Assembly: GCA_017557625.1 (NCBI GenBank) | Contig: JAFYYG010000068.1 | Span: 1 to 62,435 of the forward strand | DNA: 62,435 nt | Direction of reading: 5' to 3' | From: Muribaculaceae bacterium | GTDB taxonomy: Bacteria; Bacteroidota; Bacteroidia; Bacteroidales; Muribaculaceae | Part shown: positions 20,161 through 40,356 of the stretch, piece by piece | Numbering within the stretch: the stretch's first letter is position 1 | Layout: each line of letters begins with the position of its first letter | The notes under the pieces: generated by a model | What the model saw: only the letters and a program-made list of their open reading frames with translations | What the model was told of the DNA's origin: nothing | The model's database searches: none | Position numbers and translations under genes: made by a program

Positions 20161-23100
20161 ATGGACTATTCATTAATCGCCAATTCTGGCATACAACTAC
20201 TGTCGAAACGCATTGACATCAACCTCAATGCAGGATTTAAGTGCCGTTTCGCCGAGTCATTTGACGACGAGCGCTTTCAGTGGAAACTAGAATTTGCCTA
20301 CACACTCAGCAACCAGATTGTGGTGCTCACCTCGCAGCTGCGAGAGAAAGGCTACCTCGACAACGACAACCACCTCACCACCGGTGAGGCTGTAATCCTC
20401 GCCAACCCCGAGGTGCAGCAGTTCAACGTTGCCGACAACGAGGAGGAGAACTCTGGCATCTTCTTCTCTAAACTTGCCGCCAACAACAAGTTCCTGAGCC
20501 ATTACTTCAACGTGTGGCTACCCATGCCGTTTATCGAGAAGGACGATACCGGCGACTACAAGAAGGGACCTTACAACTGGTGTAAGTTCATGATTGTGCC
20601 GCGCGAGACCAATGCCGGCATTCTCACTGCCGACGTGGTGCTGGCCTTCGACACACAAGTGCGCTACAATGCCCTCGACGCCTACAAGGAATACCCCGTG
20701 TTCATGAGCGACGGCGAGACCGAGAAGACATTCGGCATGTGCGGCAGCGAGCGCCAGCTCATCGACTACTGCACCTGGAACAACAACTGGGTGCGCGATT
20801 ACCTGATGGAAATCGCCTATCCCGAAGCCAAGAACTTCGACGTGCTCGAGCTCAAGGACGGCAGGCACAAATATGAGTTCCTCGCCACCTACCTCATGCT
20901 CATCAAGTACCTTAGCAGCCTCGACGACTTCTTCCCCACCGTGAAGCTCATGCGCGACCGCGATGTGAACATCGTCAACGTGGAGATGATTATCGACATA
21001 GGCAACTCACGCACCTCGGCGCTGCTCTTCGAGAACAACAAGTTCACGCAAGACTTCACCAAGGTAGACCCTCTGCGGCTCCAGAACTTCACACATGTGA
21101 TATTGCCCAACGGCGAGCTCAACCGCGTGGAAGAGACCTTCGACATGCGACTGGCGTTCCGCAAGGTGAAAATCGGCAAGAACATAGCCGGCAGCAACCA
21201 GTTTGTGTGGCCAAGCATAATCAGGCTGGGACGTGAGGCCAACTACCTCATACACGAGGCCACCGCACTCAACCTGGGCCTTGAGACACTATCTACCAAC
21301 TCCAGCCCCAAGCGATACCTGTGGGACAATAAGCGCACAGAGAACGAATGGCGATTCATCAATATAGGTGACGAGAACTACTCGCTGCCACCCGTCATCG
21401 AGGGGCTAACCTGCTTCCTCAACGACGATGGCTCCTACAACGCTGAAGGCTACGGCATAGGAGCGCACTACTCACGCCGCTCGCTCATGACACTGGCCTT
21501 CATCGAGATTATAGAACAGGCCATTACACAAATCAACAGCTTCCAGTCGCGTGAGCGCCACGACCTGCGCAACACACCCCGACGCCTCGAGCGAGTGATC
21601 ATCACCTGCCCAACGGCAATGTCGCGAGTGGAGCGCCAGGCACTATACAGCAGCTTTAGCGATGCGGTGAAAATAATCAATTCTTATCACCACATCATTG
21701 ACAACAACAGCATGACCCTGCAGATGCAAGTGATTCCTGGAGAGCAGCCACGGCGCTTCGACGACGAACACAAGCAGTGGTACTACGACGAGGCCACATG
21801 CTCGCAGTTTGTGTATCTCTACGCACAGTTCTGTGAGCGCTACAAAAACCGCAGCGACCTCTTCTTCAAGCTCTATGGCAAGAAACGCGACATCGACGGA
21901 ATCACCTGCGACACCCTAAAGGTGGGCTCAGTGGATATTGGCGCCGGCACTACCGACGTGATGGTGTGCCAATACCTCTTTAACGAGAACAACCCTTCGC
22001 AAATCAAACCAAAACCCATCTACTGGGACAGCTTCAATACTGCGGGCGACGACATGCTGCAGTTGCTGGTGCACAACGTGATTATCGAGAGCGAAAACGG
22101 TATCCTCTATAGGCACCTTACCGAGAAAATGGGCATGAACCGCCAGCAGGCCTACAAGATTCTGTACCACTTCTTCGGTCAGGACAACAATATGATGACA
22201 TTCAAAGATCGCATCATGCGACGCGACTTCAATATGCAGGTCAATATCCCAGTCATGTACCGATTCCTCAACCTTTTGAGCGAGGGAGAGCGTTACCTGG
22301 AGATTGGCTTCGACGAGATGTTTGGCGACAGCAAGCCCAGCGACATCGTGTGTCAAGCCTTCAAAGACTGCTTCGGGTTTGAACTTAAAGATGTGGTATG
22401 GACCTACGACTACAGCATCCTCTCGCAGCATGTGGAGAAGTCGCTCGACTCGCTAATAGAGTCTATCTCTACTCTGCTCTATGCCCACGACTGCGACATA
22501 GTGGTGCTCTCTGGGCGACCCACCATGCTCAAGCCCATCAAGGACTGCTTCCTCAAGTACTTCCCCGTGAGCCCCAACCGACTTATCGTCCTGGGTAAGT
22601 ACCGCATTGGCAGATGGTACCCATTCCGAGACGAGAACGGCTACATGCACGACACCAAGAGCATCGTTCCCGTAGGAGCAATGATTGGCTACCTCGCGTC
22701 TATGGCGGGTGGACTCAACGAGTTCTCACTCGACCTTAGCGACCTCAGCGGCAAACTCACCCCCACCACCGAGAGCTTCTATCGTGTGGGCGGCATCCCC
22801 AAGGAGGAGTGCATCATCACTCCCACCATCAACACTGGCCGCATCACCATCAACTCCTTCCCATGCTACATCGGCGCCAAGCAATTTGACATCAGCATTT
22901 ATCCGCTCAGACCGTTCTATGTCCTTGAAATCGACAACCGCCGCATCAAGGAACGCCTCAGCAAGAACAAGATTCTCACCCCAGAGATGCTCCAACGCAT
23001 GCTGAACGATTACCGCAAGGAGTTGCAAAAGAAGGCACCATTCACCTTTGAGATAGAGCGCGAGGCCTACGACGAGGATAAAGAGAGAATCACCATCGCT

Positions 23101-23247
23101 TCGGTCACCGGCAGCGACGGCGAGGAACTCAAGGCCGATGACTTCATGCTGCAAGTGCAAAGTATCAACGACCCACAAACCTACTGGCTCGACTCAGGAG
23201 AATTTAATTTGAATATTGCAACCACCGAATTAAACACCAACAACTGA
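20161..23247 (+). CDS. SrfB-like actin/Hsp70-fold ATPase
   Basis: 1028 residues from ATG 20161 (a TTG at 20110 is in frame but unlikely). Three nucleotide-binding elements of the actin/Hsp70 superfamily are visible: phosphate-1 IDIGNSRTSALLF (278-290), phosphate-2 VDIGAGTTDVMV (from 591) and the adenosine motif VVLSGRPTML (from about 781). Size and motif spacing match the SrfB family, known from the srfABC operon of Salmonella and its relatives. No signal peptide or membrane segment, so it is cytosolic. It is the first gene of an eleven-gene run and overlaps functionally with the SrfC-like NTPase four bases downstream. The family's biochemical role is not established. Confidence 0.8.
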   Translation: MDYSLIANSGIQLLSKRIDINLNAGFKCRFAESFDDERFQWKLEFAYTLSNQIVVLTSQLREKGYLDNDNHLTTGEAVILANPEVQQFNVADNEEENSGIFFSKLAANNKFLSHYFNVWLPMPFIEKDDTGDYKKGPYNWCKFMIVPRETNAGILTADVVLAFDTQVRYNALDAYKEYPVFMSDGETEKTFGMCGSERQLIDYCTWNNNWVRDYLMEIAYPEAKNFDVLELKDGRHKYEFLATYLMLIKYLSSLDDFFPTVKLMRDRDVNIVNVEMIIDIGNSRTSALLFENNKFTQDFTKVDPLRLQNFTHVILPNGELNRVEETFDMRLAFRKVKIGKNIAGSNQFVWPSIIRLGREANYLIHEATALNLGLETLSTNSSPKRYLWDNKRTENEWRFINIGDENYSLPPVIEGLTCFLNDDGSYNAEGYGIGAHYSRRSLMTLAFIEIIEQAITQINSFQSRERHDLRNTPRRLERVIITCPTAMSRVERQALYSSFSDAVKIINSYHHIIDNNSMTLQMQVIPGEQPRRFDDEHKQWYYDEATCSQFVYLYAQFCERYKNRSDLFFKLYGKKRDIDGITCDTLKVGSVDIGAGTTDVMVCQYLFNENNPSQIKPKPIYWDSFNTAGDDMLQLLVHNVIIESENGILYRHLTEKMGMNRQQAYKILYHFFGQDNNMMTFKDRIMRRDFNMQVNIPVMYRFLNLLSEGERYLEIGFDEMFGDSKPSDIVCQAFKDCFGFELKDVVWTYDYSILSQHVEKSLDSLIESISTLLYAHDCDIVVLSGRPTMLKPIKDCFLKYFPVSPNRLIVLGKYRIGRWYPFRDENGYMHDTKSIVPVGAMIGYLASMAGGLNEFSLDLSDLSGKLTPTTESFYRVGGIPKEECIITPTINTGRITINSFPCYIGAKQFDISIYPLRPFYVLEIDNRRIKERLSKNKILTPEMLQRMLNDYRKELQKKAPFTFEIEREAYDEDKERITIASVTGSDGEELKADDFMLQVQSINDPQTYWLDSGEFNLNIATTELNTNN

Positions 23248-23251
23248 CACT

Positions 23252-26065
23252 ATGAATATCAATCAATATCTTCACATTGTAGAGAAAGCCATTTCCTGGC
23301 AGTCGAATGTTCCCGAGAGCGAGAGGCAGAACTATCTCGAGCAACTGGTAAACCTGAGAAGAGCATTCAAGAAGATTCAGTTTGCTGCCGATGAGAGGTG
23401 CTCTACAGCTGCTTTCGGAGAGAGCCAAATGGGTAAGTCCTACCTCGTCAGCGCACTGATGAGTGACCCTGGCAAACCTTTCACCGTCACCGACGGCCGA
23501 CGGGAATATAACTTCATCGACGAGATAAACCCCAGCAACCCTAACTCGCGAGTAGAGGCCACCGGCGTAGTGACACGATTCACCTCCAACATCGACCCCT
23601 CAGTACCCGAGGGATACCTCAAGGCGCGTCTTCTTTCGGTTGCCGACATTATACTCGTCTTGTGTGAAGCATATCATACACAGACCGACTACGACAACTC
23701 CGAGATTAAAAAAATCGACTATATCCATCATTATTGCGACTCTATTGACGTGTCGTCGGCACCAAATCCATCGCCCATCCTCACACAGGACGACGTGATG
23801 GACATCTATGACTATCTGCGCAGCTCCACTATGAAGCAGAGGGTTGCCAACCTCACCGACCCAGAGTCGGGGCTATTCTCGTTTCTCTTGTTCAACGTGA
23901 ACCGTCTTACCGATGAACAGCTCATCTCGGCTATCAAGCTCCTCTGGTTTGACAATCCTTCCATCAACCGACTCTTCGATACCCTCATCACCGCCTATCG
24001 TTCCATAAGGTTCAACTCCACGGTGTATGTGCCCTTCGATGCGGTGCTCAAAAAGCATGGCACGCTGCTCGACGTGGCACGCCTCGATGAAATCTACGAT
24101 GAGGCCGAGATAGAACTTCCCGACTATCGCCCCACCACGATTGTCACCACCCAACAGAATATTTCAATTGAGATGCGCAAAGGCGAGCTCAGCGCTCTTG
24201 TCGCCGAGCTCTACATGTCGCTGCCTGCCCTCGAGAGCGAGACACGCAACTTCCTTTCCTGCCTCGACATCCTCGACTTTCCTGGCGAGCGACGTCCCGA
24301 GAACATGAGCTCCGAGAAACTCACCAACGGCAAGAACCTCTCGGTAGTGCTGCGTCGCGGCAAGGTGACTTACCTCTTCAACCGCTACAGCGACACCAAG
24401 CGCATCAGCTCACTCATGCTCTGCCACAACAATATGCAGAGTGCCGAGAGCAAGATGGGCATCGTCCTCGAGCAGTGGATAAAGAACAACGTGGGCGTCA
24501 ATGCCGCCCAGCGCGACACCTTCATGCGCGACACACAGATGTCGCCGCTATTTATCATCAGCACGTTCTTCAATCTCGACCTGGAATACCAGACCAACGA
24601 CTCGCCCGCCAAGCTCGAAGAGCTGAGGCGACGCTGGGACAACCGCTTCAAGATTGTGCTTGAGAAAGAAGTGCTGCGAGCCAACACCGACGAGGACCAG
24701 ACACACTGGTTCAACCAGTGGACCACTGGACACCCCTTCCGTAGCATCTTCATGCTGCGCGACTTCAAGTACTCCACCAAGTCGTTCAATGGCTACAATC
24801 CCAACACAAAGTCGCCCGAGACCGAGGAGATAATCCCAACGGCATTCCCCAACTTCATGCAGTGCCTCAAGGACTCTTTTGTCAACTACGACTTCGTGCA
24901 GCAGCACTTTGTTGACGCCTCGCAAGCGTGGGACAGCGCGGCGACACTCAACAACGACGGCACCAAGCCCATCATCACCGCCCTCAACCAGCTCGCACCG
25001 CGTGTCAAGCAGGCCCGCGACAATATGTTTGGCACCGAAACCACGCGTCTAGTGGCTTCGCTCAAGAGCTTGCTGACAAAATACTACCATAGCGGTTCGG
25101 CCGACGATGAAATCAAAAAAGCGCGCCGTCAGGCAGCACAGGCCAACCTGCAGCTGGGCAAGATTGAGGGCACCGACCCTGCCGCCTTCGGCAAGATGCT
25201 CGACATCATGATGATTGACGAGCCTCACCTCTATGAAAAAGTCCACAATGCCCTCAACAACACGGTGACCACTACGTCAACGCCCGACTCGGAGAAAGCC
25301 CTCTTCATGATGTTTGGACTCAGCACCGAAGCATCGCGCTCCAAAAACCTCGAGACACTGTGCGACTCGCTCGGTGTGGACACCGAGGAAGAGTGCATTG
25401 AGATGCTCTCGGCCGAAGGCATCGACATCAACAAACTGCTGAACTCCAACCGCATGGTCAATTCTCAAGCCAACCAAGTGGCAACGATAGTCGAGAATTT
25501 CTGGTTTGACGAGTTCCTCACTCAATATGCGGTGCCCAAGTGCAAAGACACCATCCCCGCCGTGAGCGACATGACCACCAACCTCATCAGGCTTTACCGT
25601 TTCCTGGGTATGCACGACCGCATCACTAAGCGCATCGATGAGTATATCACCACCTTCGACAAAGACAGTGCCGTTGCAATCATTGCCGACTATCTATCAA
25701 TGGAGTTCAACCACTTCGTCACCACATTCGGCTTTGACTACATCGACAACAAGCAACTCAACAACATCCTCGAGAAGAACATCAGGCTCAAACTCAACAT
25801 CAGCGAAGAGATGCTGTCATCGCACAACGACCTAACAGGAGTGAAGTTGCTCGAAGAACTCGACCAGGCCAACCACAACCTGCAAGAGAAAGGGTATAAC
25901 AATACCGACCGCAAGGCGCTCACTCGATTGCCACGCTACGGCTTCAAGTGGACATGGATTGAGTATCTGAAAGTGGGTTACATACTCTCATGCGACCTCC
26001 CCGACTATGATATCGCAGCCAACAAGCGACTCGGAGAAATCATAAACGAAATTGACATCAACTAA
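23252..26065 (+). CDS. SrfC-like large P-loop NTPase
   Basis: A 937-residue protein with a Walker A motif GESQMGKS (56-63) and a G3-like DFPGE (342-346) following LSCLDIL, giving a GTPase-like or dynamin-like NTP-binding region. The remaining sequence is largely helical and I see no membrane segment. Its position four bases after an SrfB-like gene, its size and its P-loop close to the N-terminus match SrfC 'putative virulence effector' proteins. Translational coupling implies a complex with the SrfB-like ATPase. What it acts on is unknown. Confidence 0.78.
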   Translation: MNINQYLHIVEKAISWQSNVPESERQNYLEQLVNLRRAFKKIQFAADERCSTAAFGESQMGKSYLVSALMSDPGKPFTVTDGRREYNFIDEINPSNPNSRVEATGVVTRFTSNIDPSVPEGYLKARLLSVADIILVLCEAYHTQTDYDNSEIKKIDYIHHYCDSIDVSSAPNPSPILTQDDVMDIYDYLRSSTMKQRVANLTDPESGLFSFLLFNVNRLTDEQLISAIKLLWFDNPSINRLFDTLITAYRSIRFNSTVYVPFDAVLKKHGTLLDVARLDEIYDEAEIELPDYRPTTIVTTQQNISIEMRKGELSALVAELYMSLPALESETRNFLSCLDILDFPGERRPENMSSEKLTNGKNLSVVLRRGKVTYLFNRYSDTKRISSLMLCHNNMQSAESKMGIVLEQWIKNNVGVNAAQRDTFMRDTQMSPLFIISTFFNLDLEYQTNDSPAKLEELRRRWDNRFKIVLEKEVLRANTDEDQTHWFNQWTTGHPFRSIFMLRDFKYSTKSFNGYNPNTKSPETEEIIPTAFPNFMQCLKDSFVNYDFVQQHFVDASQAWDSAATLNNDGTKPIITALNQLAPRVKQARDNMFGTETTRLVASLKSLLTKYYHSGSADDEIKKARRQAAQANLQLGKIEGTDPAAFGKMLDIMMIDEPHLYEKVHNALNNTVTTTSTPDSEKALFMMFGLSTEASRSKNLETLCDSLGVDTEEECIEMLSAEGIDINKLLNSNRMVNSQANQVATIVENFWFDEFLTQYAVPKCKDTIPAVSDMTTNLIRLYRFLGMHDRITKRIDEYITTFDKDSAVAIIADYLSMEFNHFVTTFGFDYIDNKQLNNILEKNIRLKLNISEEMLSSHNDLTGVKLLEELDQANHNLQEKGYNNTDRKALTRLPRYGFKWTWIEYLKVGYILSCDLPDYDIAANKRLGEIINEIDIN

Positions 26066-26191
26066 CTTATGGTGGAAGGTGGAAAGTGGAAGGTGGAAAG
26101 AGCTTTCCGTTCTCAATCTCTCGTTCCACATTCCACGCGCCAAATGGCGCACACTTAAAACTTAACATTTAAAACTTAACACTTATATATT
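26066..26191. other. Intergenic low-complexity sequence and small hairpin within the operon
   Basis: Purine-rich repeats (GGTGGAAAGTGGAAGGTGG), the hairpin GCGCC-AAAT-GGCGC, and iterations of AAAACTTAACA. Longest gap in the run after 20 kb; a second promoter is possible but no -7 box is evident. Confidence 0.4.
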
Positions 26192-28750
26192 ATGCCAAAC
26201 GTGAAAAATAAAGTGCGGCTGTGCACCACATCTCCCATGAGCAACTTCATCGTGGAGAACTTGGGCGGCACTCCGTTCTATAACAGGCGAGACGACTTCG
26301 AGAGATTGATCGACAAGTATGTCACTAACCCTCGATACAAGAATTTCTTCGCCATGCCCTATTTTGAACCATCCCTGCACGGCTTGGAGTGGCATGTTGA
26401 CCCTGAGTTTGCTTATGCTGTGAAACTCTCTTCTATGGCGGGAACGCAGCAATATAATGTCGCAAAGCGATATATTGCCGAAGCCACCAGTTATTTCCGA
26501 AACCTGGTGACACAAGTCAACGAGGCCGAGCAACCTTACTTTAACTGCCTCATCAAGTATATCGACTCTACCGATATCGACGAGATGGCATTTGTTACAG
26601 AGTCGCAGGTGATTCTAGGCGTGTGGGGCATCAGGTCGATGCCAGGCATGAACATGAACACCTCTATCGTTACCGATGTTGATGACAACCGCTTGCACAG
26701 GGTATCGTTTGAGACCAACAATGCCGTACTACAGGGAAAATCATCGTTCATGCGGCGACATGGCTACAAATTGCATCCAGGTATTGATGTCCCTAAGGTG
26801 ATTCCAAATGAGGGGTTCGAATTCGTGAGCTGGATGCCGTTTGACCCCAACAATGCCCAAGTCAACGAGGACCTGCACTTTGTGGCAGAATGCAAGGAAA
26901 TAGAGACTCCTCCACCCTATGAGCCTCCTGTTTTGCCACCACCATTGGAGGAGGAGCCACCAGTAATCGAGCCTCAAATGTGCCAAATCACCTTTGATAA
27001 CGGAGGCTACGGTGCCTTTAGTGGCACCACGCCATCATTCACAGTGCCTGCTGGCACCGTGCTCACCTCATCGATGGTACCTTTTGTCACACCCATCAAA
27101 GGCTACTCCTTCCTGGGATGGGATAAACCCCTTGAGAAACCCATCACTGGCGACACCACCTTTGTGGCGCAGTATTCCAAGATACCCTGGTGGAGACGAT
27201 GGCTTGACAACGGTTGCCTGCGCTGGTTACTCTTGGCACTGCTCGCACTGCTGCTGTTCTTGCTCTTCTCTATCTGGCTCACACGCTGCACCAATGCCTC
27301 AGGCGCTTATGGTGGCTGCGTGCGCGACGCTCACGACAAGATAGTAGACACCGACAGTACCACCGACACCATTAGACACACACACGTCATCATACACGAT
27401 GAGCGAGTGGTTGGTAAAATTGACATCGGCGATGGCCGCACCATCGACGACAACGGCAACCGCAGCCGCAACAGAGACATTTCGGGCGACAACGACTGGG
27501 ACTCTGACGATCCAGTGGCACCACCAATTGTTGACGATAAAGGCAATTCCAACCGTGGCCGTTACGATCCAAATGATCCCAACAGCCCCGAAGTGATAAA
27601 CGACAGGCTCAATATTTTCTTCGACAACGACAACCCCGAATTCCAGAAGTTTGCCACTGAATTCAAGCGCAACTATCCTGGTGAGCAATACATGATTATA
27701 GGCAAGGACAAGAACACCCGCTGGCTGCTGGTGCAGATTCCGCCCGATGAACGACCCAAGATTCGTGACGAACTGCCCTCCAAGATACCATCTATTAAAT
27801 TTAAAGTAGTTGACGATTTTATCATGGAAGGCGGCCAGATGCCTCGCTCACAATCCAACCTGCCTAAAGGATGGCATCTCACCGCAGCACACATCAAGCA
27901 GGCGTGGCAAATCTCTAAGGGCAATGCTAACGTGACTGTGGCAGTCGTTGACGACGGCATCGACCTCGACCACGAGATGTTCTCGGGACGCATCGTCAAG
28001 CCTTACAACGTGTTTCGGTGTGACGACCACCTAAGCTCAGGTGTGGGACACGGCACACATGTGGCAGGCCTAGCCGCCGGTAACACCGCACACCTCAACC
28101 AGGGAGCTGCCGGTGTGGCGCCAAACTGCAAAATCATGCCCGTGCAGGTGTTTGACAACGGTCTTTGCACCATCTCAACATTGATACGCGGCATCATGTA
28201 TGCCATTCGCAACAACGCCGATGTGGTAAACGTCTCTATTGGCTCCATACCTAATCAGAATTTTTCCATCGAGGAGCAGAAGGAGATAGCTCGCAACGAG
28301 TTCAAAGACGCCGAGGACGTATGGAAATGGGTTTTTGAGCAGGCAAGCAAGAAAAAGACTATCCTCGTCTTTGCTGCAGGCAACAATCATCTGCTGGCAG
28401 CCATGCAGCCTCAGTTGAGGTCGAGAAACACCATCAACGTGGGTGCCATTGGTAAGAATAACACCATGACCGATTGGTCCAACTTTGGCAACACCGTCTA
28501 TGTCACTGCACCTGGCGAAGGCATCTACAGCTCCATTCCCGGCAATAGCTATCAGGCACTTGACGGCACAAGTATGGCTGCGCCCATCGTCACTGGAGTT
28601 GTGGCACTCATGAAATCGGTAAACAAGAACATCAACGTCAATCAGGCTCTATCTGCATTGACATCTACAGGAATCAGCATTCGCAACGGCAATCAGAGCG
28701 GCCCAGCTATTCAGGCCGACAAAGCAGTGAATAAAATCAAACAAAGTTAG
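26192..28750 (+). CDS. Membrane-anchored subtilisin-family (S8) serine protease with InlB-like repeat
   Basis: An 852-residue protein without a signal peptide. Residues 1-235 form a novel N-terminal domain, then a proline-rich linker (about 240-262), an InlB-like repeat (about 266-328, CQITFDNGGYGAFSGTTPSF to GDTTFVAQY), a transmembrane helix (about 343-363), an acidic linker, and the S8 domain (about 560-845). The catalytic triad is Asp587 (VVDDGID), His620 (GHGTHVAG) and Ser794 (DGTSMAAP), with oxyanion Asn731 (FAAGNN). A propeptide-like segment precedes it (about 475-540). Type II topology puts the N-domain and InlB repeat inside and the protease outside the cytoplasm, which is unusual. 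It probably processes envelope proteins of the same operon. Confidence 0.85.
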   Translation: MPNVKNKVRLCTTSPMSNFIVENLGGTPFYNRRDDFERLIDKYVTNPRYKNFFAMPYFEPSLHGLEWHVDPEFAYAVKLSSMAGTQQYNVAKRYIAEATSYFRNLVTQVNEAEQPYFNCLIKYIDSTDIDEMAFVTESQVILGVWGIRSMPGMNMNTSIVTDVDDNRLHRVSFETNNAVLQGKSSFMRRHGYKLHPGIDVPKVIPNEGFEFVSWMPFDPNNAQVNEDLHFVAECKEIETPPPYEPPVLPPPLEEEPPVIEPQMCQITFDNGGYGAFSGTTPSFTVPAGTVLTSSMVPFVTPIKGYSFLGWDKPLEKPITGDTTFVAQYSKIPWWRRWLDNGCLRWLLLALLALLLFLLFSIWLTRCTNASGAYGGCVRDAHDKIVDTDSTTDTIRHTHVIIHDERVVGKIDIGDGRTIDDNGNRSRNRDISGDNDWDSDDPVAPPIVDDKGNSNRGRYDPNDPNSPEVINDRLNIFFDNDNPEFQKFATEFKRNYPGEQYMIIGKDKNTRWLLVQIPPDERPKIRDELPSKIPSIKFKVVDDFIMEGGQMPRSQSNLPKGWHLTAAHIKQAWQISKGNANVTVAVVDDGIDLDHEMFSGRIVKPYNVFRCDDHLSSGVGHGTHVAGLAAGNTAHLNQGAAGVAPNCKIMPVQVFDNGLCTISTLIRGIMYAIRNNADVVNVSIGSIPNQNFSIEEQKEIARNEFKDAEDVWKWVFEQASKKKTILVFAAGNNHLLAAMQPQLRSRNTINVGAIGKNNTMTDWSNFGNTVYVTAPGEGIYSSIPGNSYQALDGTSMAAPIVTGVVALMKSVNKNINVNQALSALTSTGISIRNGNQSGPAIQADKAVNKIKQS

Positions 28751-28755
28751 AAAAT

Positions 28756-29754
28756 ATGAGCAATAAAAAATTTAACTTCGCTTTTGTCATCTCTATCATC
28801 ATCCTACTGATATATTCCTACATAGTTTTTATGGGAATAGTCTATTGGAAAGACGGTGACATCGTGCAAGGTATCATATACTCAGCTGCCCTCATTGCTA
28901 TAACCCTGGTGTGCATCATCATCATGTGCAAGGCAAAAGCCACCCGATGGAAGAAGACCGGAAACTTGGCACAAATCCTTTGTGGCACAGTGATTCTTGC
29001 CGCATTGGCTTTGAGCACCATGCCATTTGCACACTTCATCAACCTCGTGGTAAAGCAAAAGGAGATATCCGAAACTTTCGAGAAAGCACATCAATATGGC
29101 TCACAAAGCGTGGTAGCCTACAATGACTATGTGAAAAAACGCGAGGCCGACACACGCAACTTCCTCTACATGGTTGATGCTGGACACGGCGAGAGCAACC
29201 CATCAGAATATGAGGCAATCTTCGGGCTGCCTGGCAACGACAGCAACGCCGTGAAAATCGACCGCATGATTAACAGTCTACACATGATTCTGCTTCCCGA
29301 CTCGGTAACACGCGCCAATGACGAGGCGCTGAAAAACCTAGAGAAAGGCGCCAAGATGAGCGTGTGGAACATCGCTATGCCGCAATACATCAATAGCATC
29401 GATGATATGGTGAAGACCAACGTCGAGACCTTCAGCAAGCTCAGTAAGAGCGCTCACGGCTACAGGGGCGACAACAATTACCCTGCATTTACCTACAAGC
29501 AATACACCGATCAGAATGCGCAGCTCAAGGAAATGCTAACACACATGTCGATGCCTTCGGTAATCTCAGTCATCGCAGCGCTGGTGTGCTTCGGCTTTAT
29601 GCTGCTGCCCTACTACCTGGTGGAGCGTGACCTGGCAGGTGGCACCAGCGGTGGCAACAAGCGCAGCCCGCTCTCCACATCGCCCACCATGCGCCCCAAC
29701 GGCAGCGAGCGCCGTAGCCGCTTGAGCGAGCGTGACAAGCATAATAACCTATAG
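28756..29754 (+). CDS. Multi-pass inner-membrane protein of the SrfB/SrfC-like operon
   Basis: A 332-residue protein with three N-terminal membrane helices (about 8-30, 39-58, 74-97), a helical soluble stretch of about 170 residues, a fourth helix (about 272-292) and a basic, serine-rich tail (GGNKRSPLSTSPTMRPNGSE). I recognise no family. It starts five bases after the subtilase stop, so it is translated with it and may anchor or present the soluble NTPases at the membrane. Confidence 0.75.
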   Translation: MSNKKFNFAFVISIIILLIYSYIVFMGIVYWKDGDIVQGIIYSAALIAITLVCIIIMCKAKATRWKKTGNLAQILCGTVILAALALSTMPFAHFINLVVKQKEISETFEKAHQYGSQSVVAYNDYVKKREADTRNFLYMVDAGHGESNPSEYEAIFGLPGNDSNAVKIDRMINSLHMILLPDSVTRANDEALKNLEKGAKMSVWNIAMPQYINSIDDMVKTNVETFSKLSKSAHGYRGDNNYPAFTYKQYTDQNAQLKEMLTHMSMPSVISVIAALVCFGFMLLPYYLVERDLAGGTSGGNKRSPLSTSPTMRPNGSERRSRLSERDKHNNL

Positions 29755-29819
29755 ACTCCACTATTCTACTATTAAATCACATATTGTTTTCTGTTAAAAT
29801 ATAATACTAATCAACTATT

Positions 29820-31451: not shown

Positions 31452-31473
31452 ATTTTTATAAAGTTTCAATATT

Positions 31474-33177: not shown

Positions 33178-33189
33178 TTTTCTTCCATC

Positions 33190-34038
33190 ATGAGAAAGGC
33201 TCTAAAAATAGGACTTATAGCATTTGCCGTCTTGGGCATCGGCGCGCTGATTTGGCTCACCCTGCTTTACTACGACAACGACATCAAGAAGGTGACCGTT
33301 AACGACTCCTATTTCACTGCGCAAATCATTTCGCAATCCCAAAAGGAGATTACAGGAGGCAGTTCCTTCGATGCCATTTTGCGCTCTTACAACAACATGA
33401 TGCAGGAAGTGGGTGACGCCGCCTACCTCGAGAATATCAGTGCCAACGAAGCCGACACCTGCTGCAAGCTGCTCGCCTACAGCTATGCTCCCAAACTCAT
33501 CAACTACGCTAAGGAGTACTTTAAAAAAAGCGAGTGGAACGTGAGTGTCATCGACACGCTGCACCACGAGGCAGACAAGCTCATCAAAGCCGGCATTCTG
33601 CCTGATGACTCACACGATTTACCTAAGCTACGCGACATAATAAATACCGTCAATGACTACCATGATGCCGTAGCTGCCACACAAGTGGGAGGAATAACCA
33701 CAGTTGCCGCTGCACAGAATGCCATCACTCTAGCCAACTCCTACAAGCGGCCACCGCTTACTAACTGTCGTAGCCTTGCCGCCGCACTCGATGCCGTGCC
33801 CGAAAAAGCCAAGACATCGCTGGCCAACAACATCGCCGCCGCATGCCAACGGCACAGTGCCAGCACCGACGTCCTGCTAGGACGCATCAGAGACTATGAG
33901 ATTGCTTTCGGCTACAATACTCAACTCTCACAAGCAAGAGCAAGACTAGAGGCCGACAGAGACAGTGCACGTGAACGCGCGGTGCGAGAAAAGATAAATG
34001 AAGATAACACCAACTATGATGATCCAGAACTTGAATAA
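33190..34038 (+). CDS. Membrane-anchored helical protein of the operon
   Basis: A 282-residue protein with an N-terminal membrane anchor (LKIGLIAFAVLGIGALIWLT) and an otherwise helical, Ala-rich extracytoplasmic body (TTVAAAQNAITLANSY, SLAAALDAVPEKAKTSLANN). I recognise no family. It starts 12 bases after the preceding stop, and its end overlaps the start of the next gene by about 20 bases, so all are translationally linked. Confidence 0.7.
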   Translation: MRKALKIGLIAFAVLGIGALIWLTLLYYDNDIKKVTVNDSYFTAQIISQSQKEITGGSSFDAILRSYNNMMQEVGDAAYLENISANEADTCCKLLAYSYAPKLINYAKEYFKKSEWNVSVIDTLHHEADKLIKAGILPDDSHDLPKLRDIINTVNDYHDAVAATQVGGITTVAAAQNAITLANSYKRPPLTNCRSLAAALDAVPEKAKTSLANNIAAACQRHSASTDVLLGRIRDYEIAFGYNTQLSQARARLEADRDSARERAVREKINEDNTNYDDPELE

Positions 34039-35512
34039 AATATTGTGCCTCATAGTATTGGCTTTTAGCGCTGTGCTGCCTCTTGATGCGGCAGCACAAG
34101 CGGGCAATAGCATTGACTATATCAACGCCACCAAGCAGCATATCAATGCCCTTAACGACAGTATCGACAAGTACTGTCGCGACTCGGTGGCTCTGCAACA
34201 CGAACTCGACAAACTGCCAAAGGGCAATGTCGATGAGTTAACTAAGAAGCTTAATGCTTGTGTTGCCGACACCATTTCACTCAGCTCGCAGCTCGACACC
34301 AATACCCAACTGCTCGACTCCATCACTCTCAAGCGCATCGCTCTCAACGACTCGCTGCTCATGAAGGTGACAAAGTTTACCAACAACCTGCTAAACACAC
34401 CCTGCAATCCTGAGGCAATAAAGTCGCTGGAAAGCTACAGAAACTATCCCATACTGAAAGAAAATGAGCAGATTGTCAAAAACATAGAGCAACTCAATGC
34501 CTACGAGGATTATTCCTCGCAACTCATGACCATTGTCAAACCTCTTTATGAAGCTCTTGACCGAAACGGGTGGCAACCGCTAGCCGAGAGCTCCGAGGTT
34601 CTCAAAACATTTAATAATAATCTGAAAAACTACAAAAAGAATATCTACAAGAACTTTGGCAAGGAGAATGACAACATTCCTCTGCTTGACCGAACCATCC
34701 AGAGTCTTGAGAAGCATAGCGACACTAGATTTGGAGATACAAAAAATACTTTAGATGAAATAATATTCAATCTTACGCCGTGCAACGCACCATTTGTGTC
34801 GCCAGTGGAAACGTTGAACGGCTACAACACACTTACCGACAGTCTCAACACCGCTAACAGACAAGCACAGGAGAAACTTGCGAAAAAGCACGAAGAAATC
34901 ACAAAACTCAAACGCGACATCACTGTGAACGGCGATGGCAAAAGATTAGCACTTGTGCAGAAACTTAATGCCATACACATCAAGTGCGACGACATGCGAG
35001 AGCTGAAGGACATCGCAATCTTCAAGGAATGTCTATTCATCAACCTCAAGCAACCCTATAACGACACTATCATCACTGCGCTAAGGCCCTATGCCAAGGA
35101 GACCTTCTTCAAGAGCTATCAAGAATTCCAAGAGCCATATCTCCCCATCATCGACAACTACGGCACCTACACCGACTCACTATATATCGTGATGCGCGAC
35201 TGCTACAACAATTACTGCCGCAAGGCGGGATGGAAACGACTGCCGAGCGATATCCTCAAATATGTGCGTCACCAGCTCACCAGCCAGGAATACTATAAAA
35301 TGTATTACTTGCGCAAAGACAAGGTCAACAGTCCACACCTCAACGACATCATCAGCGAGTATCTCAAACTTCTTGACTCTGGCTTTGCCAATTGCAAGAC
35401 TCAATATGTCAAACTGCTCACTAAACTCAGGGGTAAAGCACCAAAAATCAAAAAGCAAAGCAATAGCGACCCACCCGAGGAGAACTTACATCAAAATGAA
35501 AACCAACAATAA
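34016..35512 (+). CDS. Secreted coiled-coil protein of the operon
   Basis: About 498 residues from ATG 34016 (ATG at 33998 and 34019 are alternatives; all overlap the previous gene). A signal peptide (KILCLIVLAFSAVLPLDAAAQA) precedes a long, mostly helical body with probable coiled coils (SIDKYCRDSVALQHELDKLP, NRQAQEKLAKKHEEITKLKR). It has no recognisable catalytic motif and could act as a periplasmic spacer or scaffold. Confidence 0.7.
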   Translation: MMIQNLNKILCLIVLAFSAVLPLDAAAQAGNSIDYINATKQHINALNDSIDKYCRDSVALQHELDKLPKGNVDELTKKLNACVADTISLSSQLDTNTQLLDSITLKRIALNDSLLMKVTKFTNNLLNTPCNPEAIKSLESYRNYPILKENEQIVKNIEQLNAYEDYSSQLMTIVKPLYEALDRNGWQPLAESSEVLKTFNNNLKNYKKNIYKNFGKENDNIPLLDRTIQSLEKHSDTRFGDTKNTLDEIIFNLTPCNAPFVSPVETLNGYNTLTDSLNTANRQAQEKLAKKHEEITKLKRDITVNGDGKRLALVQKLNAIHIKCDDMRELKDIAIFKECLFINLKQPYNDTIITALRPYAKETFFKSYQEFQEPYLPIIDNYGTYTDSLYIVMRDCYNNYCRKAGWKRLPSDILKYVRHQLTSQEYYKMYYLRKDKVNSPHLNDIISEYLKLLDSGFANCKTQYVKLLTKLRGKAPKIKKQSNSDPPEENLHQNENQQ

Positions 35513-35545
35513 CAAAATATACAACTTTAATAAGGATTTACGATT

Positions 35546-36283
35546 ATGGAAAAGGACATTAACACAAAGAATACCCCCCCCAAGGCGGTAAAACCGAGAA
35601 CCGAGGAGGATAGACGCAAGCGCCGACTGGCGTGGATTTGTGGCATACTGGCTCTGCTCAACCTCATAGCACTGGCTCTGCTCATTCTGCTGCCTTTCAA
35701 CTGCAAGGGCACCCACCATAACAACGATGACAGAGATACAGTGGTTATCGATTCCACAATATATGTGAGCGACACCTCTCGAGTAGTGGAGGAAGAGGAG
35801 GAGGATATTGAAGATGTTAGAGAAATAGTTGACAGTATAGGCGGCAACAATGATGGTTTCATGCAATTTACAATAACATGGAACAAGAACGGTCGTGATA
35901 TCGTGGATCTCGACGCACACGCCATAGAACCCACTGGTCACATATTTTTCGAGCAGCATAACAAAAACAAAGGTCAAAGACCAACCCGCAGTGGAGGAGA
36001 ACTTGACATCGACATGCAAAGACCACGAGAGAAGGGAGCAGAAAACATCACTTGGCCTAGTGCCAACCAGCTCGCCGACGGAAAATATGAGTTCTATATT
36101 GACAACTACACCGATGACCCGTTCAGTGAGTGTACAGCGATGCTCAGGGTGGGCAACAAGTCGTTCCTCTACAAAGTGGGACACTTCAGTAAAAGGACTC
36201 CTGTAAAAATCGCCGTTGTCACCATCAAGAACCATCAGGTGGAGGATATTAAGCACTTTCAGCAACCTATTTCTGAGGAATAA
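35546..36283 (+). CDS. Membrane-anchored DUF2135/YfaP-like beta-sandwich protein
   Basis: A 245-residue protein with a basic cytoplasmic N-terminus, a membrane helix (about 29-49), an acidic linker (VVEEEEEDIEDV) and a C-terminal domain of the YfaP/DUF2135 type: FTITWNKNGRDIVDLDAHAI, GGELDIDM, ENITWP and DGKYEFYIDNYTDD. The acidic positions in the strand DIVDLDAH are conserved in that family. It should lie in the periplasm. The role is unknown. Confidence 0.72.
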   Translation: MEKDINTKNTPPKAVKPRTEEDRRKRRLAWICGILALLNLIALALLILLPFNCKGTHHNNDDRDTVVIDSTIYVSDTSRVVEEEEEDIEDVREIVDSIGGNNDGFMQFTITWNKNGRDIVDLDAHAIEPTGHIFFEQHNKNKGQRPTRSGGELDIDMQRPREKGAENITWPSANQLADGKYEFYIDNYTDDPFSECTAMLRVGNKSFLYKVGHFSKRTPVKIAVVTIKNHQVEDIKHFQQPISEE

Positions 36284-36363
36284 CTGTTTTTGAGAGCAAA
36301 TATCTGCACAATTCGTGTTAGTGATGGCAACTCACATTATAGTGATCTAAACACCATATCATT

Positions 36364-37695
36364 ATGAAATGTATAAAATGTTATCGAGAGATTAACGATG
36401 GCAACAAGTTCTGCAACTTTTGCGGCACTATGCAACCACTTGACAGGGAAGCCTACTATAGAGAGCATCCCGAGCTCGCCACGGCAATGACCAATGAAGA
36501 GCTTAACATATTTGCACGCAGCAATCCTTTGTCACCAACACCGCGCTATGGAGCTGTATCGCCACCGCAGCCACCCACTCCACCTAGTGCGTCAGCTGGT
36601 AATGAGGAGTCTCAAGAGGTGTATGTAGTGACGCAGCCACACATCGCTAACAACCAGAAGGGCGACATGATGCAATGCCCCGAGTGCGGTAATATGGTAG
36701 CTGCCAACTCTAGTTCATGTCAATATTGCGGATGCCCGTTTGTAACACCAGGTGCACCAGAAGAATATGGGCATAAGCCCGACCCTAAGCACAATAACAT
36801 GAATTATGATTCTCTCGGCAACCAAAATCCTAAAAAGTCGGGCATGTCGTGGTGGGCAAAAACCCTCCTCACACTGTCGATACTCATGCTACTGGGAGCC
36901 ATAGGCGCCGGAGTTTATTACTTCCTCTTCTACAATAAGATAGAAAAATTGAAAGCCGATGTAGAATTGGTGAAATTCTCACGCAAAGGCGGCGATAAAA
37001 CGATAACTATCACTACCGACGCTGATAGTTTTGAAGTAACCAAAAAACCAGAATGGGTAACTGTGACAGTAGGCGACAAAGAAATTACCATCAAGTGCCT
37101 GCCTCTAGAGTCCTTCGAGGACCGTGAGGGTATCATCAAACTGAAAGCTGGCGACAAAGAAGACAAAATCACCGTCAAGCAAAGCTCCAAGGCTACTTAT
37201 CTACGACTCTCGCAAGACATGATAAGAACTGGCTACAAAGGCGAAAAGATTGTTATTGAGATTGACACCGATGGCGATCCATCCACCATAGAGTATGATA
37301 TTGAAAACCCTATGATATGCAGCATTTATGATAAGACAGGAACGGGATTCACTCTTAACATAGAAGAAAACACTTCTTACTCAGTAAGGCAAGGCACCAT
37401 CACCATCAGAAGCGACAAACTAGAAAAGACGATAACCATTGTCCAAGCTAAAGAATGCAGTTATTGTGATGGCACGGGAAAAGATTTCTGTTTCTCTTGC
37501 AGCAAAACAGGCCGAAAAGATTGCCCCAATTGCACAGATGGTAAAGTGTATGATGGCTATAATTATGAGTTAGAAGAATCCACTTACGTCACATGCGATG
37601 AATGTGGAGGACGTGGTGACAAGGCTTGCGACAAATGCAACGGGCGAGGCTACAACACCTGCGAACATTGCAACGGAACAGGAAATACATTCTAA
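36364..37695 (+). CDS. Zinc-ribbon/TM/BACON/DnaJ-like Cys-rich membrane protein, copy 1
   Basis: A 443-residue protein in clear modules: zinc ribbon 1 (C3, C6, C17, C20), a proline-rich linker (about 58-80), zinc ribbon 2 (C105, C108, C119, C122), a membrane helix (about 165-189), two BACON-type beta-sandwiches (about 195-275 and 280-365; first: FSRKGGDKTITITTDADSF), and a Cys-rich end with CxxCxGxG repeats like the DnaJ central domain (CDGTGKDFCFSC, CDECGGRGDKACDKCNGRG). Inferred topology puts zinc ribbons inside and BACON plus Cys-rich domains outside. Such a combination is unfamiliar to me. Confidence 0.78.
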   Translation: MKCIKCYREINDGNKFCNFCGTMQPLDREAYYREHPELATAMTNEELNIFARSNPLSPTPRYGAVSPPQPPTPPSASAGNEESQEVYVVTQPHIANNQKGDMMQCPECGNMVAANSSSCQYCGCPFVTPGAPEEYGHKPDPKHNNMNYDSLGNQNPKKSGMSWWAKTLLTLSILMLLGAIGAGVYYFLFYNKIEKLKADVELVKFSRKGGDKTITITTDADSFEVTKKPEWVTVTVGDKEITIKCLPLESFEDREGIIKLKAGDKEDKITVKQSSKATYLRLSQDMIRTGYKGEKIVIEIDTDGDPSTIEYDIENPMICSIYDKTGTGFTLNIEENTSYSVRQGTITIRSDKLEKTITIVQAKECSYCDGTGKDFCFSCSKTGRKDCPNCTDGKVYDGYNYELEESTYVTCDECGGRGDKACDKCNGRGYNTCEHCNGTGNTF

Positions 37696-37715
37696 AGAAT
37701 CTAAATGATTCCTTT

Positions 37716-39281
37716 ATGTCAAACTACAACTATCTCAAAATAGACTTCTACGGCCAGTTTAACGCCGACACGATACACAAGCTCACCTACCCTGAGCCCT
37801 ACAACCCCATGGACTCATCGTCGCAGCTGTGGCTCAACCCCATCACCGACCCACGAGCCATCCGCACTCTGTTCCCAATGGCGAAATATGGCTACAGGGT
37901 GCATCGCGACGCTAACGGCACCTACTATTCCCTCCTCACACGCTATGAGCGTGACGCGCGGCAGGGATATGTCGCCATCACAGTGATGATAGGCTCGCAA
38001 TATGAGTCGCTCATCAACGGCAAGGCGATTTTCAATCTGCTCAACATGCTCAAGGCCAACGTCCTCGACACCGACAATATCACGGTGCAGGCAGTGGAGC
38101 AATGCCTCGTCGCCAGCCAGATGCCCACCATCAATGCTGCCACCCCACCAAGCATCACACCAGTGCAAAACAGCAGCCAACAGGCATTCCGCGCTTATGG
38201 CTCCAACGACGAACTCTACGACATCCTCCAATTCCCAGAGCAAGAGGAGTATGACCAGTATGGCGAAGTGTACCTTATCAACAATTTCTGGTGCAACGAC
38301 TCTGTGCCAGGAGTGTCACAGATTACTTCGCCCATTGTCAAAAGGCAGCAAGTCGATGATTATGACTCCAATATCATCCAAAAGCCTAAAAAGGAAGGTA
38401 TGTCGTGTTGGACCAAAGCCCTCATTACTCTGTCAATTCTTATGCTCCTAGGGGCAGCAATAGGCGGCGGGATATATTACTTCTTCTACTACAACAAGGT
38501 GGAGAGACTCAGTGCCGACAAAAAAGAAGTGACATTCTCGCGCAAAGGAGGAGAGAAAACAGTAACCATCACTACCGACGCTGATAGTTTTGAAGTAACT
38601 AAAAAACCAGAATGGGTAACTGTTACAGTTGGCGACAAAGAGATTACCATAAAGTGCGAGCAATTAGACACCTACGAGGACCGGGAAGATATCATCAAGC
38701 TGAAAGCAGGCGACAAAGAAGACATAATCACCGTCAAGCAAAATGCCGAGACTACCTATCTGCGACTCTCGCAAGACATGATAAGAACTGGGCACAATGG
38801 TGGAGAGGCTGTTGTTAACTTTGACACCGATGGCGACCCTTCTGCCATCGAGTATAAAATTGACAACGCTATTTTCTGTAATGTCACTAAAACGAGCAGA
38901 GGATTCACATTTAACATTGGAGAAAACAATTCTTACTCGCCAAGGCAAGCCATTATCACCATCATCAGCGACAACCAAGAAAAGAAAATAACCATTCACC
39001 AGGCAGGAAAATGTTACAAATGCGACGGCAGAGGAAATGAATATTGTTTTGTTTGCAATGGATCAGGACAAGAACAATGCCCCGAATGCTACGGATATAA
39101 TCAAGATTGTGATAAATGTGGTGGACGTGGCTACATACCCTGCAGATACTGTAACAGACAACATCCCTGTGAAAGCTGCAACGGCACAGGAGACAATTTT
39201 GAACCAGTGCAACAGTACGGGAGAGATATTCAGAATATCTACGACTACGATGATTGGGAAGAATACACTCGACCAATATAA
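37716..39281 (+). CDS. Chimeric membrane protein: 31474-type N-domain fused to TM/BACON/DnaJ-like module, copy 2
   Basis: 521 residues from ATG 37716 (the frame extends 30 codons into the previous gene but MSNYNYLKIDFYGQF is the conserved start). Residues 1-210 are nearly identical to the N-terminus of the 31474 product. From about 228 it instead matches the 36364 product: a membrane helix, two BACON domains (VTFSRKGGEKTVTITTDADS) and a DnaJ-like Cys-rich end (CDGRGNEYCFVCNGSG). It is therefore a domain-swap product of two neighbours in the operon. Confidence 0.8.
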   Translation: MSNYNYLKIDFYGQFNADTIHKLTYPEPYNPMDSSSQLWLNPITDPRAIRTLFPMAKYGYRVHRDANGTYYSLLTRYERDARQGYVAITVMIGSQYESLINGKAIFNLLNMLKANVLDTDNITVQAVEQCLVASQMPTINAATPPSITPVQNSSQQAFRAYGSNDELYDILQFPEQEEYDQYGEVYLINNFWCNDSVPGVSQITSPIVKRQQVDDYDSNIIQKPKKEGMSCWTKALITLSILMLLGAAIGGGIYYFFYYNKVERLSADKKEVTFSRKGGEKTVTITTDADSFEVTKKPEWVTVTVGDKEITIKCEQLDTYEDREDIIKLKAGDKEDIITVKQNAETTYLRLSQDMIRTGHNGGEAVVNFDTDGDPSAIEYKIDNAIFCNVTKTSRGFTFNIGENNSYSPRQAIITIISDNQEKKITIHQAGKCYKCDGRGNEYCFVCNGSGQEQCPECYGYNQDCDKCGGRGYIPCRYCNRQHPCESCNGTGDNFEPVQQYGRDIQNIYDYDDWEEYTRPI

Positions 39282-39333
39282 ATTACATATACTCAATAGA
39301 ATATTTTTAATTTATTAATATAAACTCTAAATT

Positions 39334-40356
39334 ATGAAATGCATTAACTGTAACCAAGAGATTAATGATGGCGCAAGAATATGCAGATATTGCGGTTCGG
39401 CGCAGCCCATCAACCAAGTGATCAACGACATTGCTCCAGCAACTGAAGAACAAGTGCCGCCAATTCCCGAGGAAGTTCCCAACATGCAGGAACCTCAAGT
39501 GCCAGAAACTGATGAAAATCCTACGTATCCCTCGCTCGGCGTTGATGACATTGAGCAGCCATATTACGAGGAACCACCCAAGAAAAAAGGCATGTCAGGA
39601 TTCTCTAAATTCCTTATCGCCCTAGCGGCATTCCTGGTGCTTGCAGGAGCAGGCGGCGCGGTTTATTACTACTTCTTCTACAACAAGGTGGAGAAACTTG
39701 ATGCCAAGCCCGATAAAGTGAAATTTGACCGTACAGGCGGCAAGAAAAAAGTGAAGATTAAGACCGACGCCAAGGAGTTTGAAGTTTCCGAATGCCCCGA
39801 CTGGCTAGACGTTGACATCGATGACGATGAGATTGTCATCAAGTGTAAGGAATTAACTGGAGATAAAGACCGCAAGGGAACCATCGAAATCTCTGCTGGC
39901 GACAAAACCACCGAAATAAAAGTTGTGCAGAGTTCTGATGCAAGCTATATAAATGTGGATCCAACATCTGTTGACGCTTCAGCCGCAGGTGATAGAATTA
40001 CTATTGATATTGATACCGATGGCGATACCGAAAAATTTGACATTGATGCCAATGTTGACTGGATAAATTACGATATCTCTAGTTCATCCATAACGCTGAT
40101 GATTAATCAAAACTATTCAGGCGAAAGTAGAACTGGAACAGTAACTATTTCTAGTGGCAATACCGAAGCAACCGTTAATGTTGAGCAGGAGGGAAAATGC
40201 TACAGGTGTGACGGAACAGGTGAAGTTACATGTGACGAATGTTATGGCTCTGGAAGAACATATAGCGAATACTGGGAAGAATACGTTGATTGCTATAAAT
40301 GTGATGGGACAGGAAGAATAACATGTCCTGTATGCGGTGGTGGTGCTTATAAGTAA
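39334..40356 (+). CDS. Zinc-ribbon/TM/BACON/DnaJ-like Cys-rich membrane protein, copy 3
   Basis: A 340-residue protein: zinc ribbon (C3, C6, C17, C20), an acidic Pro/Glu-rich linker, a membrane helix (about 88-110), two BACON domains (about 117-285, KVKFDRTGGKKKVKIKTDAK; SGESRTGTVTISSGNTEAT) and a shorter Cys-rich end (CYRCDGTGEVTCDECYGSGR). It is more diverged from copies 1 and 2 than they are from each other, so it is an older duplicate. It closes the SrfB/SrfC-like run. Confidence 0.78.
   Translation: MKCINCNQEINDGARICRYCGSAQPINQVINDIAPATEEQVPPIPEEVPNMQEPQVPETDENPTYPSLGVDDIEQPYYEEPPKKKGMSGFSKFLIALAAFLVLAGAGGAVYYYFFYNKVEKLDAKPDKVKFDRTGGKKKVKIKTDAKEFEVSECPDWLDVDIDDDEIVIKCKELTGDKDRKGTIEISAGDKTTEIKVVQSSDASYINVDPTSVDASAAGDRITIDIDTDGDTEKFDIDANVDWINYDISSSSITLMINQNYSGESRTGTVTISSGNTEATVNVEQEGKCYRCDGTGEVTCDECYGSGRTYSEYWEEYVDCYKCDGTGRITCPVCGGGAYK

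Follow-up and report, generated by a model that had tools for sequence, protein, structure and literature searches.

What could an operon do that sets relatives of SrfB and SrfC beside a membrane-anchored subtilase and a second GTPase? We addressed this question for a stretch of 62,435 nt (the window; contig JAFYYG010000068.1 of the Muribaculaceae bacterium assembly GCA_017557625.1, a genome of 3.05 Mb in 76 contigs, in which it is contig C60). Here, 12 open reading frames (ORFs), all on the plus strand, run from the SrfB start codon (ATG, 20161) to the end of a BACON-domain protein at 40356. An earlier note on this DNA had described eleven co-directional genes, mostly 4–80 bases apart, as an uncharacterised envelope-spanning NTPase/protease system. 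The common direction held and the count did not; the spacing (4, 126, 5, 65, 22, 12, −41, 33, 80, 20 and 52 nt in gene order) is mostly as described, with one larger gap and one overlap. The locus is indeed an NTPase/protease operon with anchored parts that lies mostly outside described systems, although its subtilase does have a counterpart in srf operons. Only seven of the genes form a conserved core. The reading we favour, with slightly less than even confidence, is an SrfABC machine spanning the inner membrane that couples NTP hydrolysis to proteolysis outside the cytoplasm.

The first gene encodes SrfB (1028 aa; 20161–23247), which matched PF07520 with an E value of 2.4e-177 (592 bits against a cut-off of 27.1). 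Its motifs DIGNSRT, DIGAGTTD and LSGRPT, which we take to be the phosphate-1, phosphate-2 and adenosine motifs, hold columns that were invariant across 31 sequences (D279, G281, N282 and T285; D592, G594, G596, T597 and D599; G785 and P787). Comparison with MreB by hhalign gave a partial match on the second phosphate motif (probability 73%), Pfam FtsA was matched below threshold (E = 0.006), and profiles of solved structures (PDB) returned no match at E ≤ 1. The motifs and the partial MreB match fit an actin/Hsp70-like (ASKHA) ATPase; the SrfB assignment made earlier is thus firm, and its actin fold is what these two lines suggest. SrfC (937 aa; 23252–26065) matched PF10139 (E = 2.5e-96; 324 bits against 28.1), and the P-loop NTPase proposed earlier can be refined to a predicted dynamin-like GTPase. 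Its G1 (G-x-SQ-x-GKS) and G3 (DFPG-x-R) motifs were invariant in 30 of 30 sequences, G4 reads TKFN in most of these and TFFN in the window, and the predicted model has the GTPase-domain fold of the dynamin superfamily, with low whole-length TM-scores (about 0.2) against bacterial dynamin-like proteins. Hydropathy revealed no transmembrane (TM) segment in SrfB or SrfC of the window. Where SrfC profiles matched antibodies and designed repeats, this was put down to chance. A phage origin was rejected, SrfC having no match among 50,697 phage records.

The third gene connects the operon to SrfA. Its product (852 aa; 26192–28750) is a bitopic subtilase (PF00082, E = 8.9e-47) with an SrfA-like N-terminal domain (SrfA-N, residues ∼1–152), a TM segment at 346–364 and an S8 peptidase domain at 580–826. 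Both the membrane anchor and the intact D587/H620/S794 triad reported earlier were confirmed, the triad being invariant, together with the oxyanion asparagine N731, in all 29 aligned S8 proteins. Residues 1–147 of SrfA, from three gammaproteobacterial proteins, aligned in hhalign with the N-terminus of the S8 family at a probability of 99% (E = 4.5e-18), and a set of six SrfA sequences gave 99.2% (E = 2.6e-19); as controls, five column shuffles reached at most 0.9% and unrelated profiles at most 1.6%. For the subtilase, the earlier statement that the rest of the set belongs to no known srf operon is therefore incorrect. Residues 370–468 of the three SrfA proteins also matched the C-terminal tail of many S8 relatives, the window excepted (95.9%, E = 6.2e-9). 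This match dropped to 71% with six SrfA sequences since the C-terminal domain of the three alphaproteobacterial sequences is a different one; the end domain of alphaproteobacterial SrfA-like proteins matched the S8 tails of loci L092 and L095 (98.8%). The C-terminal FLNGxW domain of SrfA is present in S8 relatives such as those of L087, L088, L093 and L114 and absent from the window S8, which stops 58 aa past S794. As judged from these profile comparisons, the window subtilase is a counterpart of SrfA whose part predicted to lie outside the cytoplasm carries a peptidase domain.

SrfA-N also has other partners. Trypsin-like proteases (type by annotation; GNSGG present) of the Cereibacter, Mesorhizobium and Methylobacterium srf loci start with it (hhalign 98%), and it was found on three YfaP-tailed proteins (99%). 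Across the 47 loci described below, an SrfA-N profile whose alignment included 18 S8 rows matched 22 of 37 full-length S8 proteins. It further matched proteins other than S8, bitopic or unassigned, in genome G751 (392 aa, E = 4.8e-20) and, lying downstream, in G508b (613 aa, 1.4e-19), G574 (748 aa, 1.5e-17), G547 (602 and 451 aa, 5e-11 and 6e-11), G170 (408 aa, 6.8e-9) and, more weakly, G502, G100 and G112. Because the profile finds SrfA-N joined to such differing outside domains, it looks like a swappable, if not universal, adaptor that would connect through one TM segment to S8, trypsin-like, YfaP-like or other domains. Runs of SrfA-N proteins follow SrfC in two loci, four in L087 (G547) and three in L088 (G508b), their remainders all different. 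At a contig edge in L064 (G048; ORF 4–3531, minus strand), S8 and the four-TM protein are apparently fused in a 1177-aa frame.

The remaining four core genes include the second GTPase. TM332 (28756–29754), the multi-pass membrane protein of the earlier note, has four TM segments by hydropathy, and a homologue occupies the same position in every type-1 locus (defined below) reaching that far, bar G135. The GTPase itself (543 aa; 29820–31451) bears the motifs GTPSSGKT, DIAGE and TKCD, in agreement with the earlier description, and G292, K293, G370, E371 (the Walker B Glu), K456 and D458 were invariant in 30 of 30 family members. Seven of these 30 matched Pfam DO-GTPase1 and seven DO-GTPase2, five a TPR-like (YfiO) N-terminus, and DO-GTPase was above cut-off in two of nine relatives scanned singly, which points to a DO-GTPase-like protein. 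N567 (31474–33177; core position 6, N6) is bitopic (TM 346–364) with an N-terminal domain of predicted longin fold; the longin matches cover model residues ∼2–141, and the top Foldseek match of the predicted model was TagF. The seventh core gene (g7) encodes H282 (33190–34038), a signal-anchored helical protein. Filing the operon as a GAP1/DO-GTPase conflict system was rejected, since GAP1 is rare in the genomes (GAP1-N2 in none and GAP1-N1 in one of 148 Bacteroidota genomes; 2 of 349 in the family of G226) and the longin domain compared with two GAP1-N1 sequences was not significant by hhalign or HMM. When 31 proteins of core position 6 were scanned at E ≤ 1, GAP1 was likewise not among the Pfam families listed (25 of 30), and a plasmid search for further GAP1 relatives gave 11 records. 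We make no claim for a faint R-x-G strand motif common to the longin domain and GAP1-N1.

SrfB was detected in 25 of 198 genomes of the family, 18 of 295 of the order and 2 of 296 of the phylum; the genome of the window is part of all three counts. The 47 loci compared comprise the window, 43 found in the genome searches and three named contigs from metagenome-assembled genomes (MAGs). SrfB relatives 91–93% identical (best segment) lie on four MAG contigs, titled Muribaculaceae (two, from buffalo and yak rumen), Bacteroidales and Prevotellaceae; the fourth contig, L053, was taken as the same as that of G135. In 34 loci SrfC directly follows SrfB (type 1), in six a protein of ∼335 aa lies between them (type 2), and in seven SrfB has no nearby SrfC, four of these being at contig ends. 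The core order SrfB–SrfC–S8–TM–GTPase–N6–g7 is complete in 26 of the 34 type-1 loci, with a median gap of 18 nt over 157 gaps (98% ≤130 nt). As for the eight incomplete ones, G048 and G754 meet a contig edge, the three named MAG contigs reach the end of the stretch examined, both the TM gene and g7 are gone from G135, and no g7 was recognised in G112 or G699. In type 2, S8 comes next in G547, G508b and G574, G742 and G546 end near SrfC, and G527 continues with other ORFs. Profile comparison did not convincingly relate the type-2 middle protein, or a gammaproteobacterial hypothetical protein after SrfC, to any core gene (the best match, hypD to g7 at 21%, was not counted).

Within the family, 24 of the 25 genomes with SrfB and 3 of the 173 without it had a strong GTPase match (E < 1e-80, a line we set ourselves; Fisher p = 1.4e-26 with no correction for relatedness), the single miss being G048, which is cut short. 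We also surveyed the GTPase away from SrfB, in the three SrfB-negative genomes and as second copies in G002 and G101. TM and GTPase genes adjoin in four of these five loci (G060, G187, G002:C44 and G101:C49), G060 and G187 have the full TM–GTPase–N6–g7 cassette, and G102 has the GTPase alone; none of the five has SrfB, SrfC or a full-length S8, though a frame of 215 aa in G060 weakly matches S8. Since the cassette occurs without these partners, the core consists of two modules, SrfBC–S8 and the GTPase cassette, which are usually but not always together. Profiles from single alignments were used for YfaP and TM332, as the iterated ones drifted. Downstream of the cassette in G187 (L128/L129) come an 837-aa protein, whose motifs look ASKHA-like by eye, and a 2024-aa protein with KTG near its end; neither had a Pfam match in the parts scanned. 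Of the joint system proposed earlier, the subtilase and the GTPase thus mostly recur beside SrfB and SrfC, BACON mostly does not and H504 not at all. The situation that the note had named as refuting it exists in part, the SrfB/SrfC pair occurring without the GTPase cassette in G547, G508b and proteobacterial loci.

Upstream of SrfB lies an TATCTTTG box (20085–20092, plus strand), which we take to be the Bacteroides −7 consensus and which is the likely promoter for the entire operon. The next one on the plus strand is only at 48871, and TANNTTTG has five plus-strand matches within the operon, all intragenic. Because of the one box and the small gaps, the data support a single transcription unit, perhaps including the gene at 40426–42429, which we take to be LtaS-like. 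The earlier note had held that clear internal promoters and terminators would speak for independent units. A sigma-70-type scan of 19200–39199, whose consensus is not that of Bacteroides, found 34 promoter-like sites against 21.8 (SD 4.3) in shuffles, two of them in plus-strand gaps (26162 and 29776), and terminator-like sites showed no excess (19 against 21.5).

How might these parts act together? In the cytosol, the SrfA-N domain of the bitopic protein would be the platform on which SrfB and SrfC come together, while its subtilase, given the N-in topology that we infer, would face the far side of the membrane. The second module (four-TM protein, DO-GTPase-like switch, bitopic longin protein and anchored helical protein) may sense a change in the membrane or periplasm and set the switch, with the longin domain as the likely GTPase regulator. 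NTP-driven assembly would then activate or position the protease, which could cut envelope or invader proteins, and YfaP-like, BACON and further SrfA-N bitopic proteins may serve as interchangeable outward modules. The system may serve to remodel the surface or, about equally likely, to respond to conflict at the envelope by defence or damage control. A bolder proposal, which we consider rather unlikely, is a new class of trans-envelope machine, in which a longin-regulated GTPase detects an insult to the membrane or periplasm such as phage entry, SrfB and SrfC on SrfA-N switch a protease on, and both control (Tag-like vWA/kinase in Proteobacteria, DO-GTPase/longin in Bacteroidota) and output (S8, trypsin-like, YfaP-like and others) can be exchanged. 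If true, bacteria would be using the kinds of part known from eukaryotic membrane traffic, namely a small GTPase, a longin, a dynamin and an actin-fold ATPase. Under the favoured reading, the long-puzzling srfABC would gain one concrete mechanism spanning two phyla, founded on an SrfA-N adaptor that carries the protease, a dynamin-like SrfC and, in Bacteroidota, control by GTPase and longin, and testable at S794, the SrfC G1 lysine, the SrfB phosphate loop and K293 of the GTPase.

The last five genes of the operon are accessory. H504 (33998–35512), signal-anchored and with coiled-coil-like matches, had no relative at E ≤ 1e-4 in other loci. For the single-TM protein of 245 aa (35546–36283), the YfaP-like domain recognised earlier had no Pfam match at E ≤ 1 and found its support in a related domain at the S8 C-terminus of L092 and L095 (BLAST E = 1.3e-6 and 6.3e-6; hhalign 77%, against only 40% for alphaproteobacterial SrfA-like C-termini); YfaP-like genes occur in four further loci (G024, G030, G183 and G128; 28–34% identity). 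BAC443 (443 aa; 36364–37695) and a 340-aa protein (39334–40356) have the architecture zinc-ribbon–TM–BACON–Cys-rich. The gene between them encodes a mosaic paralogue (521 aa; 37716–39281, its ATG being preferred to TTG at 37626) with an N567-like longin domain and a BAC443-like TM–BACON–Cys half. Over 300 nt each, its 5′ half is 93% identical to the N567 gene (31472–32098) and its 3′ half 81% identical to BAC443 (36889–37188). BACON was above the Pfam cut-off in all three proteins (E = 7.5e-16 in the mosaic) and DnaJ Cys-rich below it among the matches listed. BACON genes accompany SrfBC in the window and G135 and occur without SrfBC in G060; three close relatives stop short of this place.

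Outside the operon, the sulfatase-family membrane protein at 40426–42429 starts 69 nt past its end without an TATCTTTG box of its own and may be co-transcribed; no such gene was seen after the G135 locus. Upstream (17746–19250) are two tandem related proteins of 227 and 235 aa (37% identical, each with an N-terminal hydrophobic stretch), also seen in L051, with three relatives in RUG12310. No tRNA and no Rfam family above gathering score was detected in the window.

The system apparently moves laterally, as its phylogeny and placement suggest. Well-supported branches of the SrfB tree force three placements of genus g23 and two of g1, with other families nested. In genus relatives, 14 stretches next to the operon's right-flank gene, between 4 and 20 kb long and in some cases truncated by a contig end, showed no core gene, most of these genomes not having been searched for SrfB themselves; G146 has no operon there and its own operon on another contig. 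On a plasmid of Runella, from another order, the core and one extra ORF lie directly downstream of BREX (L114). We surveyed 201 ORFs within 9 kb of 36 loci and scanned 133 from 30 loci, leaving out G070, G002, G138, G101 and the farthest ORFs. In raw counts, PADLOC matches at E ≤ 1e-10 were mad3 in two and single ones to PbeA (five models), type IV restriction endonuclease (two models), CARF_m8, mad2, type I restriction endonuclease and PtuA1; Pfam returned many housekeeping families as well as prealbumin-like, MG4 and Big_1 domains. We did not adopt a defence island, for which these few matches argue only weakly. Among ten window proteins, the subtilase alone had a strong PADLOC match, to subtilase and IetS models.

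Several observations weigh against the proposed protease machine. SrfBC and the GTPase cassette are each found without the other: no GTPase match follows SrfBC in the type-2 loci of G547 and G508b, and four more type-2 loci, cut by contig ends, probably lack the cassette likewise. Fifteen of the 37 S8 proteins had no SrfA-N match, and in 13 of these loci no other ORF had one at E ≤ 1e-3 (G502 and G100 have a weak match in a different gene). Seven further SrfC proteins all lacked the G4 pattern, G3 is absent from Rahnella SrfC, and the window GTPase had no Pfam match at E ≤ 0.1. Three gammaproteobacterial loci, in incomplete gene tables, showed no protease gene, their SrfA proteins ending in a non-peptidase domain, and genus g3 is one clade in the SrfB tree, so that inheritance also plays a part. 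Finally, a complex is reported for Xenorhabdus only, outside the Bacteroidota, and there SrfABC is presented as a toxin on animal cells (PMC6950479). Could it be a toxin here too, secreted in several parts? SrfA, SrfB and SrfC affect HeLa cells to which they are applied and, in earlier work cited in the same article, insect cells (PMC6950479). SrfB also occurs on plasmids in 142 records, of which 114 are from Klebsiella, many of these of human origin. We nevertheless judge it highly improbable, given that SrfB and SrfC of the window show no TM segment by hydropathy, the S8 protein is anchored and bacteria of soil, plants and fresh water are among the carriers.

The two serious rivals, both of which we regard as possible though doubtful, concern what the system is for. 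One is an anti-phage or anti-competitor conflict system of the GTPase-centred type of Kaur et al. 2020. The DO-GTPase-like switch with its Walker B Glu, an ASKHA partner that parallels the HSP70 theme (PMC7159879), the prealbumin-like, MG4 and Big_1 domains in neighbours, the patchy spread with the SrfB tree conflict, BREX in Runella and the mad2/mad3, PbeA, PtuA1 and restriction endonuclease matches all point that way, but the defining partner GAP1 was not found, the longin domain does not significantly match GAP1-N1, the neighbour matches are few, and PADLOC strongly recognised only the subtilase among the ten window proteins scanned. The other is surface remodelling or envelope homeostasis, in which a regulated periplasmic protease would mature or shed surface proteins and SrfC remodel the inner membrane. 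It is in line with the bitopic serine proteases of both phyla, with the swarming defect of Salmonella srfC or srfABC mutants (PMC4219756) and with the Hap-like gene, tagQ and ppkA beside srfBC in host-associated Deltaproteobacteria (PMC3608642); the patchy spread (25 of 198 family genomes) speaks against housekeeping. Post-translational control of a type VI secretion system (T6SS) had in its favour the TagF match of the longin domain and the TagTSR-like vWA, ABC, permease and SUMF1 genes in the Klebsiella, Lelliottia and Cereibacter srf loci. We rejected it as very unlikely, the VipB sheath family being matched in 0 of 26 SrfB-positive genomes, where the control matched only in E. coli. Chance association of unrelated genes would suit the accessory genes, which vary between loci, and is the least probable account of all, already unlikely for the core: its gene order persists between families, and into one further order, even where the proteins are of low identity, SrfB and the GTPase co-occur, and S8 is fused to YfaP and, in the G048 frame, to the TM protein.

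How does the proposed protease machine compare with known systems? In Xenorhabdus, SrfA, SrfB and SrfC form a complex by native polyacrylamide gel electrophoresis and co-immunoprecipitation (PMC6950479). A 2013 article calls srf function still unclear (PMC3608642, section 16) and describes srfBC of host-associated Deltaproteobacteria with a Hap-like gene, tagQ, ppkA, ligA and often tagRST; given this gene context, a link of srf to a protease-like gene and envelope signalling is already in print. Among the literature matches listed, in titles and the openings of abstracts, with preprints and most subscription literature outside the scope, neither the S8 fusion nor the GTPase/longin module nor a dynamin fold of SrfC was found described. 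The TagQRST–PpkA/TagF pathway, which relays a signal from the envelope into the cytosol (PMC3608642) as is proposed for the window, shares with it a TagF-like longin-type domain, whereas the window's operon has no recognised kinase and the 26 genomes no T6SS sheath. DO-GTPase systems combine an NTPase core with an effector-releasing peptidase, fast-changing beta-sandwich sensors and an HSP70 theme (PMC7159879, which mentions neither Srf nor SrfB nor SrfC). With the window they share a Walker B Glu GTPase, an ASKHA/HSP70 partner, peptidases, variable beta-sandwich domains and membrane parts, but no GAP1 was found for the window, and GASH and FNIII were not among the Pfam matches listed; the window has an SrfABC core and a longin protein instead. 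SrfC resembles SynDLP, the DLP pair, BDLP and LeoA in its GTPase motifs and predicted fold, and differs from them in its low whole-length TM-scores and in having an ASKHA ATPase and a protease as partners. Closest are the proteobacterial srfABC loci (Xenorhabdus, Salmonella, Klebsiella plasmids and Cereibacter), which like the window have SrfB, SrfC and an SrfA-N bitopic protein. In three alphaproteobacterial ones a separate SrfA-N protein bears a trypsin-like protease, and a YfaP-like tail is present as well; in the Mesorhizobium locus (L172) several PAN-domain genes take the place of the vWA/ABC/SUMF1 set. The window differs in its gene order, B–C–A, and in a peptidase that is of family S8 and lies within the SrfA-like protein; and where some proteobacterial srf loci have vWA, ABC and SUMF1 genes, Bacteroidota instead have those for the four-TM, DO-GTPase-like and longin proteins.

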